From the IMG/VR virus record IMGVR_UViG_3300025674_000086, positions 1-44,327 of that record: DNA of 44,327 nt, one strand, 5' to 3'. This document shows, piece by piece, positions 2,713 to 20,576 of the stretch (positions within the stretch are counted from its first letter, which is position 1; the number at the start of each line of letters is the position of its first letter). The notes beneath the pieces were generated by a model. The model was not told the origin of the DNA. It did no database searches and worked only from the letters and a program-made list of their open reading frames with translations. The stretch is from a virus. Both the position numbers and the translations under genes were made by a program.

Positions 2713-4583
2713 GCTTTTTAAACGAAGGAACTTTTATAGGAAAAAACGCCGTAGCAGATGCTTTAAAAGACCCTGAATTCAAAGCTTTAAAAAGCGATGA
2801 AAAGGCTAAAGCTATTGCTACTCTTAAACAAGGTGGATCTATAACTACTGAAATAGAAGAAGCTAACGCTTACCTTGCTGCTGCTGATGCTGCTAGAGAT
2901 GCTGGTAAAAAAGAATTTGAATTTCCTGAAGGTAGTGGTAAAATGCATAAAGTTACCCTTAAAAGAGATTTAGATCTTGAAGAAGGTAAATTATCCAAAG
3001 CATTAGGTGGTGTAGCTGTTCTCGCAGGGCTTTTATTAATGAATAAAATTAATTCAAATGATCCTGTAATTCAACGTTTACAAGCCGAATATGAACAAGC
3101 AGATCCTGCTCAACAAGATTCTATTCAAAAACTCATGACTAAAAGATTAATTTTCTTAGATAGTGGTGATTTTGATAGTGAAACTCCTATGGATGAAGCT
3201 AAAGGTGGTGAATATAATCCACCTGAATATACAATTTTTGAACCAGCAAGAGGAGAAAAAGGCAGATTTAGAAGCGCTGTGGGTTACAAACCATTAAAAA
3301 GTCCTACAGACACCGTAGGTGATTTTAAACAATTTACCAAAAAAGCAGCTAAGGTAGCAGGTAAAAGATTTGATAAAGGATTTGCTAAATTTGTAGGAGT
3401 TGAATATGATACCCCATTTTCTGATTTAGTAGATGATTTAGAAAGAGTTTTTAAAGATAATCCTGACAACACTGAATTACAAAAATTTGCTAAAAAATTA
3501 TCTAATATTGAAGATATGTCTAAAGATGAATTTAATTCTTTTATAAAAGAATTAGGTAAAGAAGGATATGATAAAAAAGAACTTCAAAAACTCCAAGATA
3601 GATATAAAAAAGCTCAGCAAGCAAAAACTTCTAAAAACAAAAAAGCCGTGAAAGAAGAAAAAGAACTTCAAAAACTCCAAGATAGATATAAAAAAGCTCA
3701 GCAAGCAAAAACTTCTAAAAACAAAAAAGCCGTGAAAGAAGAAAAAGAACTTAAATTACCTGCAGATACTACTTTTACTATTGATCTTAAGCATCTTATG
3801 CAAAAACATGGTAAAGAAGATACTATTAAACTTACTAAAAAGTTAATGCAACAACTTCATGATAAAGGTAAAGTTGAAGTTGATGGTACTACTTTAGTTT
3901 TTGAAATGAATATGATGCAAGATACTCCACTAGCACTTCCAGAACCACCTGCTCGCGATTACTTAGGCGACGATGGTAAAGATTACGAAGGTGGAATGGC
4001 TAAAAGTCAAATGCTCAAAATGAAAAAATATGCTACGGCATTGTGCGATATGGTAGATGATGAAACACAATTAGAAGCATGGGTTCAAGCTAAAATTACT
4101 AAAGCTTCTGATTATATGTCTGCTGTCTATCATTATTTAGATTATCAAAAATCTAAAATGGATGAAAATTTAAATCCATCAATGATGGATACTGATGAAA
4201 TATTAGTTAGTATTTTAATGAGTGTAGCTAGACTTGGCGAAGAATCTGCTGAACAAGTAGTAGATAATTTAACAGCTGAAGATTTTAAAAAAGCTGCTAT
4301 GATGATGATGAGAGATGTTGATGAAAGAGAAATAGCTAAATTTATTCTTTCTGCTACTAAATTAGATGAAAGTTCTAAAATAAATGAAAATCGCTTAGTA
4401 CCTAAAGACGAATGGGAACAATTAGATATTGAATGGGAAATGCCTAATCCAGATGAAAATAGATTAGATTATCAGGCAGGGGTACTCATTGGAACTACAG
4501 ATGATGGCCGTGAATTTGAATCATATGGTTACTATACTGAATTTGAAGGTCTTGTAATTGATGATGATGTATATGAAGTATGA
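2709..4583 (+). CDS. Large acidic protein with a perfect internal duplication
   Basis: 624 residues from ATG 2709; the alternative TTG at 2700 is three codons upstream, but the ATGA overlap with the previous stop favours 2709. The protein is charged, largely helical, and has one short hydrophobic segment near residue 100 (LGGVAVLAGLLLMNKI). Residues 291-346 are two identical 28-residue copies starting ELQKLQDRYKKAQQ, encoded by identical 84-bp DNA copies. The rest resembles internal or core-type structural proteins of T4-like phages in composition only. I do not recognise the family. A role inside the prohead or virion is possible but unproven. Confidence 0.8.
   Translation: MSFLNEGTFIGKNAVADALKDPEFKALKSDEKAKAIATLKQGGSITTEIEEANAYLAAADAARDAGKKEFEFPEGSGKMHKVTLKRDLDLEEGKLSKALGGVAVLAGLLLMNKINSNDPVIQRLQAEYEQADPAQQDSIQKLMTKRLIFLDSGDFDSETPMDEAKGGEYNPPEYTIFEPARGEKGRFRSAVGYKPLKSPTDTVGDFKQFTKKAAKVAGKRFDKGFAKFVGVEYDTPFSDLVDDLERVFKDNPDNTELQKFAKKLSNIEDMSKDEFNSFIKELGKEGYDKKELQKLQDRYKKAQQAKTSKNKKAVKEEKELQKLQDRYKKAQQAKTSKNKKAVKEEKELKLPADTTFTIDLKHLMQKHGKEDTIKLTKKLMQQLHDKGKVEVDGTTLVFEMNMMQDTPLALPEPPARDYLGDDGKDYEGGMAKSQMLKMKKYATALCDMVDDETQLEAWVQAKITKASDYMSAVYHYLDYQKSKMDENLNPSMMDTDEILVSILMSVARLGEESAEQVVDNLTAEDFKKAAMMMMRDVDEREIAKFILSATKLDESSKINENRLVPKDEWEQLDIEWEMPNPDENRLDYQAGVLIGTTDDGREFESYGYYTEFEGLVIDDDVYEV
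3579..3746 (+). repeat. Perfect 84-bp tandem duplication in coding sequence
   Basis: Copy 1 is 3579-3662 and copy 2 is 3663-3746. The copies are identical base for base, and the first six bases recur again at 3747 before divergence. The unit is 28 codons, so the reading frame is kept. Identity at silent positions implies a recent duplication. Confidence 0.95.
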
Positions 4584-5029
4584 ATAAATTAACTGAACAA
4601 CGACTAAGACGTAAAATACGTCAAATAATAAGGGAAGAACGTGAATATCAATTACGTGATTTATCACCTGGAGCATATAGTGCTTTAGGTTCTGATATAT
4701 TAGGTATCCCTCCTTCTGCTATTGTAGATGTTAAAATAGTTAAAGCGCCTAAACCAATTTTTAAATGTTTTCTTGAAAATGGTCAAACATTTAACTTAAT
4801 TGACAACGGTGAATATATGCAAGCTGATATTAATCGTATTTTATTTGATTTAGATAGAGACGATGATATTAATGGTGCAAAATATGAACTTGAAAAACTA
4901 ATGCAAAAAGGAAGCATCCCATCTGATGAAGAACCCGCAAATACTAGTTCAGAAGAATTACCACCTGAAGCAGAACCGGGATTTGAAAAACCTGCAGGTG
5001 AAGAACCCGCAGAAGAACCCGCAGCATAA
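4580..5029 (+). CDS. Small protein with helical N-terminus and acidic Pro/Glu tail
   Basis: 149 residues. The N-terminus LTEQRLRRKIRQIIREER is a basic amphipathic helix matching a motif repeated in other proteins of this phage. The middle (about residues 30-95) looks globular (ILGIPPSAIVDVKIV, FKCFLENGQTFNLI). The C-terminus from about residue 112 is a low-complexity EEP/PAE tail. IRE followed by E in the N-terminal helix would fit the T4-type prohead protease consensus (hydrophobic-x-Glu), which would make this a candidate core protein; that is inference. It is joined to its neighbours by ATGA and TAATG junctions. Confidence 0.75.
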   Translation: MNKLTEQRLRRKIRQIIREEREYQLRDLSPGAYSALGSDILGIPPSAIVDVKIVKAPKPIFKCFLENGQTFNLIDNGEYMQADINRILFDLDRDDDINGAKYELEKLMQKGSIPSDEEPANTSSEELPPEAEPGFEKPAGEEPAEEPAA

Positions 5030-9448: not shown

Positions 9449-9460
9449 ATATATTTATTA
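9449..9460 (+). promoter_or_regulatory. ATATTTATTA element (candidate late promoter)
   Basis: TATATTTATTA-type element 21 nt before the ATG at 9482, matching the element found upstream of many genes here. Promoter role inferred. Confidence 0.4.
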
Positions 9461-16359: not shown

Positions 16360-16500
16360 ATGGCTAAAAAAATTAATGCATTTGAGTTTAGTAAAGGTGG
16401 TTCTAAGGTAAACCGCCCTGGTATACATGCTAAGACTAAATCTAGTAAGCATAAAAATTCAAAAAACTATCAAAAAGCCTATAGAGGACAAGGAAAATGA
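16360..16500 (+). CDS. 46-residue very basic protein
   Basis: ATG at 16360, stop TGA at 16498-16500 overlapping the gp21 start (ATGA). The product begins MAKKINAFEFSKGGSKVNRP and continues with a Lys/Ser/His-rich stretch ending YQKAYRGQGK. It has almost no acidic residues (one Glu), so nucleic-acid or acidic-scaffold contact is likely. Tight coupling to gp21 and its place in the core-gene slot suggest a prohead-core or DNA-binding head protein. Function unproven. Confidence 0.7.
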   Translation: MAKKINAFEFSKGGSKVNRPGIHAKTKSSKHKNSKNYQKAYRGQGK

Positions 16501-17108
16501 GCCAATTATTAGTAGAACATATCCCATTTAAAGTCGATAGACTTTTAGTAGAAGCATCAATTAAAGAAAATCGTCCTTTAGTTGTTAAAGGTATACTTCA
16601 AAAAGCCGGTACTAAAAACCAAAATGGTCGTATCTACGAAAGAAAAATTCTTGAAAGGGAAATCCAAAAATATATAGAAGGCCCAATTAAAGAAAATAGA
16701 GCATTAGGTGAATTAGATCACCCCGAATCGTCTGTTATTAACTTAAATAATGTATCCCACAATATTAAAAAAGTATGGTGGGATGGAGATACCGTAATGG
16801 GTGAAGTAGAAGTATTATCTACCCCAGCAGGTAATATACTTAAAGAATTATTCCGTAGTGGAATTACAGTAGGAATTTCTTCTAGAGGAATGGGTTCAGT
16901 AGAAGAAAATGCTAATGGTACTTTAATAGTACAAGAAGATTTCGATTTATTATGTTGGGATTTTGTTTCTACACCTTCAACACCTGGTGCTTATATGACA
17001 CCAACTACATTAAAAGAAGGAATAGAAACCCCAATTAAAGATTACACTAAAGTAAATAACATTATCCGTGATATCATTTGTGATAACACAGGAATGTGTA
17101 AGTGTTAA
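16497..17108 (+). CDS. 21: Prohead core protease (T4 gp21-like)
   Basis: 203 residues. This is the serine protease that matures the prohead by cleaving scaffold, core and capsid proteins. Motifs in family order are KNQNGRIYERKILEREI (41-57), GELDHPES (71-78, catalytic His75), GITVGISSRGMGS (122-134, catalytic Ser within ISSRG) and FDLLCWDFVSTPS (149-161). Length and order match T4 gp21. It lies upstream of the scaffold and capsid genes. The C-terminal CDNTGMCKC is unusual for its cysteines. Start ATG 16497 overlaps the previous stop by 4 nt. Confidence 0.95.
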   Translation: MSQLLVEHIPFKVDRLLVEASIKENRPLVVKGILQKAGTKNQNGRIYERKILEREIQKYIEGPIKENRALGELDHPESSVINLNNVSHNIKKVWWDGDTVMGEVEVLSTPAGNILKELFRSGITVGISSRGMGSVEENANGTLIVQEDFDLLCWDFVSTPSTPGAYMTPTTLKEGIETPIKDYTKVNNIIRDIICDNTGMCKC

Positions 17109-17290
17109 TCTTTACCTAAAATTCCTTTAACAAAGTAGACTAAAAAGACTACAATCATGATTGGCCATAACCCAATCATCCAAAATCTTTCTCCGAAACT
17201 TACATCGTTTCCTGTCCAACGGATTACATGTTCAATTACAAATGAAATAACTAATCCGGCTAAAATGTATTCTACTGCTAACAAAATCAT
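17105..17290 (-). CDS. Small membrane protein on the opposite strand
   Basis: 61 residues reading leftward from the ATG at 17290 to a stop overlapping the gp21 stop. Two hydrophobic helices (LAVEYILAGLVISFVIEHVI and a C-terminal FWMIGLWPIMIVVFLVYFV) flank a polar loop, RWTGNDVSFGER. The composition is that of a genuine two-pass membrane protein and the plus strand here carries no competing gene, so I think it is real. It is the only convincing minus-strand gene in the window. The family is not known to me; its position between protease and scaffold is odd. Confidence 0.6.
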   Translation of the reverse strand: MILLAVEYILAGLVISFVIEHVIRWTGNDVSFGERFWMIGLWPIMIVVFLVYFVKGILGKD

Positions 17291-17326
17291 AATATAGGGG
17301 CTTTTTCATAAGATAACAAAAAAATC

Positions 17327-17347
17327 TTTGGTCTCCAAACCTTTTTT
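17327..17347. terminator. Weak hairpin-T element between gp21 and gp22
   Basis: TTTGG-TCT-CCAAA followed by CC and six Ts. The stem is only 5 bp, so it is a weak terminator for plus-strand transcripts from gp21, lying just before the next candidate promoter. Confidence 0.35.
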
Positions 17348-17358
17348 ATATTTATTTT
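17347..17358 (+). promoter_or_regulatory. TATATTTATTTT element (candidate late promoter for gp22)
   Basis: Matches the recurring ATATTTAT element but lies 123 nt before the scaffold ATG, leaving a long leader that contains the phased hairpins. Confidence 0.4.
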
Positions 17359-17369
17359 TAACAAGCATA

Positions 17370-17457
17370 CACTATAAAAAAATAGTGTCCCTGGATTTTA
17401 AAACAAATCCCTATTAGAGATACTAAAATCTCTATTTCCCGTATTTTTATTTACCGG
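17370..17457 (+). promoter_or_regulatory. Array of four 23-nt-phased hairpins in the gp22 leader
   Basis: Three perfect 6-bp stems each enclose a 6-nt A-rich loop: CACTAT/ATAGTG (17370-17387, loop AAAAAA), GGATTT/AAATCC (17393-17410, loop TAAAAC) and AGAGAT/ATCTCT (17416-17433, loop ACTAAA). Starts are exactly 23 nt apart. A fourth element at 17438-17457 (CCCGTA with TACCGG, one mismatch or bulge) falls in the same phase. Stem sequences differ while geometry and A-rich loops are kept, which points to RNA structure rather than a repeated DNA site. Likely a leader controlling scaffold or head-gene expression; mechanism unknown. Confidence 0.7.
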
Positions 17458-17481
17458 AAGCCAAATAAAAACTTTTACAAA

Positions 17482-18537
17482 ATGGCTGAATTATTAAAAG
17501 AAGCAATCGCTGACGCGAAAGCTGTTAGAGAAGTCGCTTTGCAAAACGCTAAAATGGCGTTAGAAGAAGCGTTCGACTCTAAATTAAAAAACATGCTTTC
17601 TGCTAAATTAGCAGAAGAGCTTGAAGAGGACGTTGAACTTGAAGAGGTATACGAAGAAGACGATGATAATGTAAAGTCTGAAGGTGATACTTACGAAGAG
17701 GACGACGTAACTGAGGAATTCGATCTTGATGAAGAAATCAACCTTGACGAACTCATGGCTGAACTCGAAGAAATGTCATATGATGAAGACGATGATATGA
17801 AAGAGGGATACGATGAAGATGAAAAGGTTGATGAAGGTTTAGGCACTAAAGCTGTAGCCATCATGAAAGGTATTGGTAAATCTTTAAACCCATTTAAACA
17901 ACCTGCTGACTATGCTAAAGAAATGCAAGCCGCTTTGCAAAAAGATCCTGAGTTAAAAAACGATGAGGATTTTATGCAACAGTTAAACTTCTTTAAAGGA
18001 TTCGCAGATATTGCTTCTGCTGCATCTGACGCTGGAGCAGACATGGGTACTAAAGCAATGAATGAAGATTTCGACATCGATGCTTTAATTTCTGAAATCG
18101 AAGCTGACCTTGAAGAAGGTAAGAAAAAGGCTAAAGATGATGAGAAAAAAGAAGACGAGGAGAAGAAAAAGATGAAAGAAGAACTCGCTGAGGCTCTTTC
18201 AACTGTTGATACTCTTAAGTCTACTATCTCTGAAATGAACCTTTTAAATAGCAAACTCCTCTACTGCAACAAGCTTTTCAGAGCTAATTCTTTAACAGAA
18301 GCTCAAAAAATTAAGGTGGTTGACGCCTTAGACAAAGCTGCTACAACTGGTGAAGCTAAATTAGTATTCGAAACTCTCGAAGAATCTTTTGCTTTTACAG
18401 GTGTAGAAAAAAGAGCTATTCAAGAAGGTTTAGGACGTGCTTCTAAGCCTGCTGGAGTTGCTCCTAAAAAGGTTATTGCGGAATCAGTTGATGAGACTGT
18501 GTCTCGATTCCAAAAACTCGCAAACATTAACAAATAA
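17482..18537 (+). CDS. 22: Prohead scaffold / core protein (T4 gp22-like)
   Basis: 351 residues. This is the main internal scaffold around which the gp23 shell assembles; it is degraded by gp21 on maturation. The protein is very acidic at residues 48-125 (Glu/Asp runs), then carries a Lys-rich segment around 213-235. The family signature NLLNSKLLYCNKLF lies near 253-266 and is followed by LTEAQKIKVVDALDKAAT and EAKLVFETLEES. The C-terminus SRFQKLANINK resembles the end of the 9482 protein. It lies directly upstream of gp23 as in T4. It is preceded by a 123-nt leader with four phased hairpins. Confidence 0.94.
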   Translation: MAELLKEAIADAKAVREVALQNAKMALEEAFDSKLKNMLSAKLAEELEEDVELEEVYEEDDDNVKSEGDTYEEDDVTEEFDLDEEINLDELMAELEEMSYDEDDDMKEGYDEDEKVDEGLGTKAVAIMKGIGKSLNPFKQPADYAKEMQAALQKDPELKNDEDFMQQLNFFKGFADIASAASDAGADMGTKAMNEDFDIDALISEIEADLEEGKKKAKDDEKKEDEEKKKMKEELAEALSTVDTLKSTISEMNLLNSKLLYCNKLFRANSLTEAQKIKVVDALDKAATTGEAKLVFETLEESFAFTGVEKRAIQEGLGRASKPAGVAPKKVIAESVDETVSRFQKLANINK

Positions 18538-18548
18538 TTTTAGAAAAC

Positions 18549-20207
18549 ATGAATGTTAACACATTATTAGAGGGCGCATCCCCGCTCCAACATCAGCAGA
18601 ATGAAGCTGCTAAGTTGGCTAGCAAGTGGGAAAAGTCCGGACTCTTGGAAGGCTTAAACGGCCACGAGAGCGAAAAAGCAAACATGGCTGTTCTCCTTGA
18701 GAACCAAGCTAGACAATTAGTAAATGAAGTCAATAGCACTGGTACTGGTACTTCTATCACTGCTGGGTCTTCAGAAGCTTGGGCTGGTGTTGCTCTTCCA
18801 CTTGTTAGAAGAGTATTCGGTGAGATCGTTGCTAAAGACCTCGTGTCTGTTCAGCCAATGAACCTCCCTTCAGGCCTTATCTTCTACTTAGATTTCCAAT
18901 ATGGTCAAGCACAACCAGGATTCGCTGCTGGCTCTTCTTTATACTCAGTAGATTCTACTACGCTTAAAGAAACAGAATTACCTGCTGTAGGTAAGGGTAG
19001 TGGTCTTTATGGTGCTGGTCGTTTCGGTTACTCAATCAATGATACCGCTTCTATTGTAACTTCTTTAAGTACTACAGCTAATGCTTTATCTACTTATACC
19101 ACAGGTTCTATAAACGCTGCTGACTACAATTATAACGCTGAATGGTCTGCTTCTCATGCAGGTCAATTTAATGCTTCAAACGCTTCTGGTGTTTATAAAG
19201 TAATTGTTGATGCCACTGATGGTCTTATAGATTATGATCCTGAAGGAATTAGAGCATTTGAACTTTCAGGTACTGGTATTTTAGAAACTTTCAATGAGTT
19301 TACTAAATTAAATGGTGATAATATTGAATTCCTTGTTTCTTGTTCTGGTGATGCTGGTGCTATTAGCGCATTAACTGTTCAGTACCAAAAAGGTCCAGAT
19401 AACCTTAACGACAGAGGTGATTTCGAAGAACTTGATTTTGATGGAGTAGGTTCTCTTGATATCCCTTCAATCGATGTTAAATTAAACAGCGATACTGTTA
19501 CAGCGAAAACTCGTAAATTGAAGGCTCAATGGACACCAGAATTCGCTCAGGATTTGAATGCTTACCACAGCATCGATGCTGAAGCTGAATTGACTTCTAT
19601 TCTTTCTGAGTACATCTCAATGGAAATCGATCTCGAGATCCTCGACATGTTGATTAGAAACGCTGACACTACAGATTTTTGGAGTGCTAAAATTGCTAGA
19701 GAAAGAAGCAACACAGGTGTTGCAACTGATTTAAGCTCAGGTGTTTACTATACTAAAATGTCTTGGTTCCAGACCTTAGGTGTTAAACTCCAAGCAGTTA
19801 GCAATACTATCCACCAGAAGACTCTTCGTGGAGGTGCTAACTTTATGGTAGTTTCTCCAAGAGTAAGCACAATCTTAGAATCTATTCCTGGATTCGCTGC
19901 TGATTCTCCTGGTGATTCTAACAAGTACGCGATGGGTGTTCAGAAAATCGGTGCTATCAACTCTAGATACACTGTTTATAAGAATCCATACATGACTGAA
20001 AACACCATTTTAATGGGTTATAAAGGTAACCAATTCCTCGAAACAGGTGCGGTATTTGCCCCATATATTCCATTAATTATGACTCCACTTGTGTATGATC
20101 CTGTATCCTTCACTCCACGTAAAGGAATCATGACTCGTTACGCTAAGAAAATGGTTCGTCCAGATTTCTATGGTAAAATTACCGTTACTGATCTTAACGA
20201 ATTGTAA
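18549..20207 (+). CDS. 23: Major capsid protein (T4 gp23-like)
   Basis: 552 residues, HK97-fold shell protein. The N-terminal propeptide (1-60) ends QARQLVNE; cleavage by gp21 after Glu60 would leave VNSTGTGTSITAGSSEAWAG as the mature N-terminus, comparable to T4 gp23 cut after residue 65. SVQPMNLPSGLIFYLDFQYG near residue 100 is the hallmark of the family. Later motifs include KLKAQWTPEFAQDLNAYHS, ISMEIDLEILDML and the C-terminal VSFTPRKGIMTRYAKKMVRP. It starts 11 nt after gp22, and a strong terminator follows. Confidence 0.96.
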   Translation: MNVNTLLEGASPLQHQQNEAAKLASKWEKSGLLEGLNGHESEKANMAVLLENQARQLVNEVNSTGTGTSITAGSSEAWAGVALPLVRRVFGEIVAKDLVSVQPMNLPSGLIFYLDFQYGQAQPGFAAGSSLYSVDSTTLKETELPAVGKGSGLYGAGRFGYSINDTASIVTSLSTTANALSTYTTGSINAADYNYNAEWSASHAGQFNASNASGVYKVIVDATDGLIDYDPEGIRAFELSGTGILETFNEFTKLNGDNIEFLVSCSGDAGAISALTVQYQKGPDNLNDRGDFEELDFDGVGSLDIPSIDVKLNSDTVTAKTRKLKAQWTPEFAQDLNAYHSIDAEAELTSILSEYISMEIDLEILDMLIRNADTTDFWSAKIARERSNTGVATDLSSGVYYTKMSWFQTLGVKLQAVSNTIHQKTLRGGANFMVVSPRVSTILESIPGFAADSPGDSNKYAMGVQKIGAINSRYTVYKNPYMTENTILMGYKGNQFLETGAVFAPYIPLIMTPLVYDPVSFTPRKGIMTRYAKKMVRPDFYGKITVTDLNEL

Positions 20208-20548: not shown

Positions 20549-20576
20549 AAAGGCCGCTTTAAGCGGCCTTTTTTTA
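20549..20576 (+). terminator. Strong intrinsic terminator after the small virion gene
   Basis: AAAGGCCGC and GCGGCCTTT form a stem around TTTAA, followed by a T run. Confidence 0.93.

Follow-up and report, generated by a model that had tools for sequence, protein, structure and literature searches.

We identified a conserved cis-acting RNA in the 5′ leader of the mRNA for gp22 (scaffold position) and gp23 (major capsid protein) in a broad set of far-T4 phages of the immuto type, and sequence searches detected it solely at this operon. Comparison of about 95 related leaders established a conserved core of two predicted hairpins, designated H1 and H3, each with a 7-bp stem whose pairing is kept in more than 90 phages as the stem sequences differ. 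A conserved, covarying structure upstream of one orthologous gene was thus found, which assigns the element to the general kind of structured cis-regulatory leader RNAs.

Head operon and its promoter

The window (the whole stretch of viral DNA analyzed, 44,327 nucleotides) represents a 44-kb segment from a T4-like phage. The following features were found in and around its head operon:

17108, end of gp21, prohead protease (PF03420, E-value 7e-35)
17319-17347, + strand, terminator-like hairpin (UUUGG-UCU-CCAAA, then U6) read in the sequence, abutting the promoter box
17348-17355, + strand, late-promoter box ATATTTAT, which recurs before other + strand genes
17369-17388, + strand, H1, 7-bp stem ACACUAU/AUAGUGU, loop AAAAAA, preceded by AU (17367-17368)
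17393-17410, + strand, H2, 6-bp stem GGAUUU/AAAUCC, loop UAAAAC
17415-17434, + strand, H3, 7-bp stem UAGAGAU/AUCUCUA, loop ACUAAA, preceded by UAU (17412-17414) and followed by UUUCC
17436-17459, + strand, H4, UUCC.GUA/UAC.GGAA, directly 3′ of H3
17482-18537, + strand, gp22, scaffold-position gene
18549-20207, + strand, gp23, major capsid protein
20549-20575, + strand, terminator-like hairpin (GGCCGC/GCGGCC plus U7) read in the sequence, after a small ORF downstream of gp23

gp22 was named from its position alone, between the gp21 protease and gp23, and had no match in Pfam or PHROG. gp23 was assigned by tblastn to annotated major capsid proteins and follows gp22 after a gap of 11 nt. A 61-codon membrane-like ORF was observed on the minus strand between gp21 and the head leader (17105-17290). 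Between gp20 and gp21, the window also encodes a strongly basic 46-aa protein (16360-16500), a possible nucleic-acid binder, for which Pfam and PHROG searches gave no match. By capsid protein, the closest cultured relative in the phage collection was Flavobacterium phage immuto (56%). Two of four related contigs from bacterial genome assemblies fell in Flavobacteriales bins, which is consistent with Bacteroidota hosts but is no proof of them.

Besides gp22, at least eight + strand genes of the window have the box ATATTTAT 24–36 nt upstream of their start codons (boxes at 9451, 13379, 15275, 20576, 21292, 29383, 41668 and 43838). The box is probably the late promoter of this phage group. Its sequence is near the TAnnTTT form of the Bacteroidota -7 element. 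By analogy with T4 late promoters, the gp22 transcript would be expected to start at about 17360-17363. The distance from box to ATG at gp22 is 134 nt, compared with the 24–36 nt at other genes of the window, indicating an exceptionally long leader. A similar difference was observed in immuto (105–111 nt at gp22 versus mostly 24–38 nt at other late genes). A stem plus T-run just 5′ of the box was also present in relatives, such as L006, L125, L128, L134 and immuto. Since no promoter box was found in the gp22-gp23 gap and terminator-like hairpins flank the two genes, gp22-gp23 looks, as far as can be read from sequence, like a separate insulated unit.

A leader peptide or attenuator was considered and rejected: upstream of the gp22 start, the leader of the window contains one GTG but no ATG. 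ATG was present in 23 of 111 leaders, in which no conserved reading frame was noticed. In immuto, an annotated 30-aa CDS (gp068, L139 3007-3099) overlies the leader RNA and is probably spurious.

Hairpins in the window

The original prediction described four hairpins in this leader, phased at exactly 23 nt, with 6-bp stems in the first three and an imperfect fourth. Folding confirmed all four at the predicted places, including the imperfect H4. Six pairs proved correct for H2, but H1 and H3 have seven each. The hairpin midpoints (17378.5, 17401.5, 17424.5 and 17447.5) are indeed separated by exact 23-nt steps. The proposed comparison with shuffled controls also bore out the structure: region 17340-17490 folded at -26.5 kcal/mol compared with -15.0 (sd 3.1) for shuffles (z -3.7), and none of 200 shuffles was as good. 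When folding began at the expected transcript start (17361-17520), z was -5.1. Moreover, three 6-bp hairpins within 70 nt occurred only once in the 44-kb window, whereas a single such cluster arose across 20 dinucleotide-shuffled versions of the whole window, and two of 2,000 leader shuffles had one.

An additional pairing is possible around the gp22 start codon (17459-17487): AGCC near the end of the leader is complementary to GGCU directly past the AUG, and the two could enclose it. This pairing is retained in several close relatives.

Covariation in related phages

A blastn search with the hairpin region against phage records gave no match, and relatives were therefore gathered through protein searches, which yielded 137 related viral loci. 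The gp22 N-terminus is well conserved in relatives and fixes the start codon, allowing 94 distinct leaders to be read. Nearly all of them have one hairpin after the promoter box and another ~25 nt further on. In MAFFT alignments analyzed with RNAalifold, seven of seven H1 pairs covaried (29 sequences), as did five of seven H3 pairs (32 sequences), and none was broken in either stem. H1 covariation was seen in three of seven pairs within the window's clade alone. The covariation score for H1 and H3 together was 0.555, compared with 0.214 for shuffled and no more than 0.185 for slid controls; for H3 and H4, it was 0.221 versus 0.112 and no more than 0.102, respectively. The H3 helix was just 68% paired in the count for H1 and H3, because MAFFT shifts one arm by two columns in ~10 sequences. 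In an alignment of 89 leaders fitted to a covariance model, whose pair counts lean towards the model, 98.8% of H3 cells were paired and double-sided changes occurred at all 14 H1/H3 pairs.

Selection on RNA shape, which had been suggested from the window alone, is thus supported by compensatory changes at H1 and H3. Relatives devoid of conserved hairpins, named beforehand as the outcome that would speak against the element, were looked for, and the hairpins proved to be conserved instead. The unit under selection is a hairpin array in the leader, as predicted, but it comprises H1 and H3 and not all four hairpins.

H2 is confined to the window's clade and lacks compensatory changes; outside this clade, a spacer of 18–27 nt is found at its position. 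H4 appears in relatives as UUUCC pairing with GGAGA (or GGAA), just before the start codon in many members, though not in all. With 91% of its cells paired and no double changes, its complementarity is conserved without covariation. An arrangement of four equal hairpins was rejected on these grounds, H2 being clade-specific and H4 conserved in sequence.

Fixed letters, spacing and an alternative pairing

Stem sequences were highly variable: 45 different 5′ strands for H1 and 29 for H3 were counted among the 89 leaders. AU immediately precedes H3 in all 89, and before H1 the A is present in 81 and the U in 88. The last two loop letters are also conserved (A in 80 and U in 81 of 89 for H1; A in 88 and U in 81 of 89 for H3). 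Loops of relatives end in AAU or UAU, the common forms being CCUAAU (typical), CCCAAU, CUUAAU, CUCUUAU and CUUAU. The A-rich loops of the original prediction are therefore a trait of the window's clade and not a general one. In an independent scan, 6-bp hairpins with a YYHAAU loop numbered 56 in the 94 leaders (14 kb) and 12 in the other ~940 kb of the same strand, corresponding to a ~300-fold higher density in leaders; the minus strands held 45. The spacer between H1 and H3 varies (26–28 nt in the closest relatives, 18–27 nt across the 89 model-fitted leaders), and the 23-nt phase, exact as it is in the window, was rejected on this basis as a conserved or functional feature. H1 begins 6–15 nt past the promoter box in most members.

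In L012-type leaders, a strand beside the promoter box (A, GGATAGC) can pair with strand B (GCTATCC), which can alternatively pair with strand C (GATAGCT) to form H1. The three strands change together in L012, L014, L017, L033 and L106, preserving two mutually exclusive hairpins, both of which follow the AU rule. The choice between A:B and B:C would depend on where the transcript starts, making this a possible start-site-dependent switch and suggesting that transcript identity matters in these phages.

Distribution

With the covariance model, 75 matches at the gp22 site were detected among the 94 loci at E-values up to 0.4, and no off-target match at that level; these E-values are rough, and the promoter box adds to the score. 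Seven genomes of 155–190 kb, including the whole genomes of immuto and Microcystis phage Mel-JY01, each had one copy, always at gp22. Other late mRNAs of the same phages thus had no element in this search. Mel-JY01 also has a bS21 ribosomal protein gene between gp21 and gp22 (L140 2684-2911), which bears on ribosome choice if its host belongs to Bacteroidota. Six of six held-out loci fetched after model building (L148, L149-L152 and L153) had the element at gp22, L148 being from a 484-kb phage. A freshwater group missed by the model (L084, L089, L091 and L095) has two hairpins with different spacing, and the second loop ends in AAU or similar letters. These data support the predicted placement of a leader element of the head operon 3′ of the late-promoter box.

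The model detected no element in a more distant 206-kb genome or in the head regions of T4, cyanophage S-RIM2 and Rhodothermus phage RM378. In RM378 (L141, minus strand, about 4540-4660), the region upstream of the gene in the gp22 position shows a pair of hairpins together with two AT-rich boxes that resemble promoters. The hairpins may represent a distant counterpart, but RM378 was left uncounted as a member. When 119 genomes of a host class were searched, the sole match was in the one that held a phage contig; the absence of matches in the other 118 led us to reject a host element borrowed by phages.

Possible functions

Stem letters vary while stem height, flank and loop letters are fixed, which suggests a binding factor, and the presence of two hairpin copies suggests a two-site or dimeric binder. 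The target mRNA encodes scaffold and capsid protein, and control of its stability or translation would be the natural output. We propose, with a probability of about 50%, that in this new cis-acting leader RNA of phages H1 and H3 serve as paired binding sites for a trans-acting factor that controls capsid-mRNA stability or translation. Scaffold and capsid protein are the most abundant late products. Both hairpins would be bound by one factor, most likely a phage protein, and how stable the scaffold/capsid mRNA is and how well it is translated would be set by this binding or by the folded 5′ end as such. Where UUUCC and GGAGA precede the start codon, H4 could make ribosome access depend on the state of H3. 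Against binding, loops have drifted to AAAAAA or ACUAAA in the window's clade, which weakens a strict loop-recognition model there. More tentatively, we put forward a narrower version: the two hairpins would define a previously undescribed RNA family, and a protein encoded by the phage, probably a dimer, would recognize AU-7 bp-YYNAAU on both and so tune scaffold and capsid synthesis. T4 RegA (PF01818), detected in the T4 control, was rejected as the binder, being absent from seven element-bearing genomes. A phage RRM_1 protein was likewise rejected (none in eight genomes, including these seven). A host-encoded RRM protein is a possible binder.

The main competing explanation is a passive 5′ stabilizer, which we consider rather unlikely but which could act jointly with binding. 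A hairpin at the 5′ end, with others backing it, would block 5′-end-dependent decay and insulate the ribosome site, with no specific binder. The short distance from box to H1 in most members implies few unpaired 5′ nucleotides at the predicted start, and the element serves a capsid mRNA. There is also a precedent in the stem-loop of T7 gene 10, which is thought to stabilize mRNA and raise expression and which, placed in a different bacterium, led to a 1.5- to 3-fold increase in expression (PMC6146998). However, such a stabilizer needs neither the conserved AU flank, the YYNAAU loop nor the fixed 7-bp height of both hairpins, does not require an internal H3 ~25 nt away, and does not explain why other late mRNAs of the same phages are without the element.

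An improbable alternative is a ribosome-recruiting or standby element, in which the hairpins and an A-rich tail would present the start site to host ribosomes and the UUUCC-GGAGA pairing of H4 would hide or expose a Shine-Dalgarno-like GGAG. Many relatives conserve this complementarity ahead of the start codon, which favors such a role. In addition, Bacteroidia ribosomes normally do not use Shine-Dalgarno sequences (PMC9976891), so an alternative recruitment signal is plausible. However, GGAG is missing in immuto and many other members, and GGAA of the window is ~24 nt from the AUG. The start region also opens only slightly, with a predicted mean unpaired probability of 0.59 for the native compared with 0.53 for a shuffled leader.

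We regard as very improbable an antiterminator RNA of the HK022 put type, which would target RNA polymerase as soon as the transcript begins; two hairpins do begin a long, highly expressed late transcript, but the element is confined to one short operon that ends at its own terminator. Least credible is a DNA-level element, in which inverted repeats next to the promoter would be bound by a regulator and RNA folding would be incidental: H1 is close to the box and the box-adjacent strand also pairs in the L012-type clade, but H3 is 50–70 nt downstream, and freely varying stems with fixed loop and flank letters and pairing kept in more than 85 phages fit an RNA.

T4-type head assembly depends on defined amounts of scaffold and capsid protein, and to our knowledge most of the search for its control has so far concerned promoters and interactions between proteins. 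If the narrower version is correct, T4-type head assembly would be controlled at the RNA level, and this control would be shared by phages ranging from 160-kb Flavobacterium phages to one of 484 kb. A covarying leader tied to one operon across a large group of marine and freshwater phages offers a directly testable handle on how capsid output is set in hosts thought not to use Shine-Dalgarno sequences. The leader further suggests that an RNA-binding factor exists, and it represents an RNA family that Rfam does not contain.

Comparison with known systems

No Rfam 15 family was detected at its gathering threshold in the window or in 14 relatives, and the best sub-threshold match was S4-Clostridia (15.9 bits versus a threshold of 37.5, E-value 0.64). 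The element was not found described in the literature searched, whose coverage was incomplete so that this absence is weak evidence; both results agree with the earlier view that no leader element of this kind had been reported. Structured leaders on phage capsid mRNAs are already known as a general kind. The GUCCY-hairpin motif (PMC2864571), considered since GUCCCU follows H1 in the window, was set aside; that paper's text gives no testable description of it, and its table lists no Rfam accession. The manA and wcaG motifs are structured cis RNAs of T4-like cyanophages (PMC2864571). Their structure, hosts and genes (exopolysaccharide, photosynthesis) differ from those of the H1/H3 element.

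The put antiterminator RNAs of HK022 consist of two hairpins that start early phage transcripts and target RNA polymerase. The likeness to H1 and H3 lies in the layout at a phage transcript start, and the present element belongs to a late head operon. The leaders of T4 genes e, soc and 49 have a hairpin close to a late promoter that sets late transcripts apart from those arising by read-through. The choice between A:B and B:C in the L012-type clade is similar to this arrangement; however, the ribosome site is hidden by the hairpins of T4 in early transcripts, whereas H1 and H3 do not hide it. The T7 gene 10 leader has a 5′ hairpin near the transcript start of a major capsid mRNA, and H1 would be placed similarly if transcription starts where predicted. 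The T7 leader combines a single hairpin with a strong Shine-Dalgarno sequence, whereas the element described here is a covarying pair whose loop and flank letters are conserved, and its phage group is unrelated to T7.
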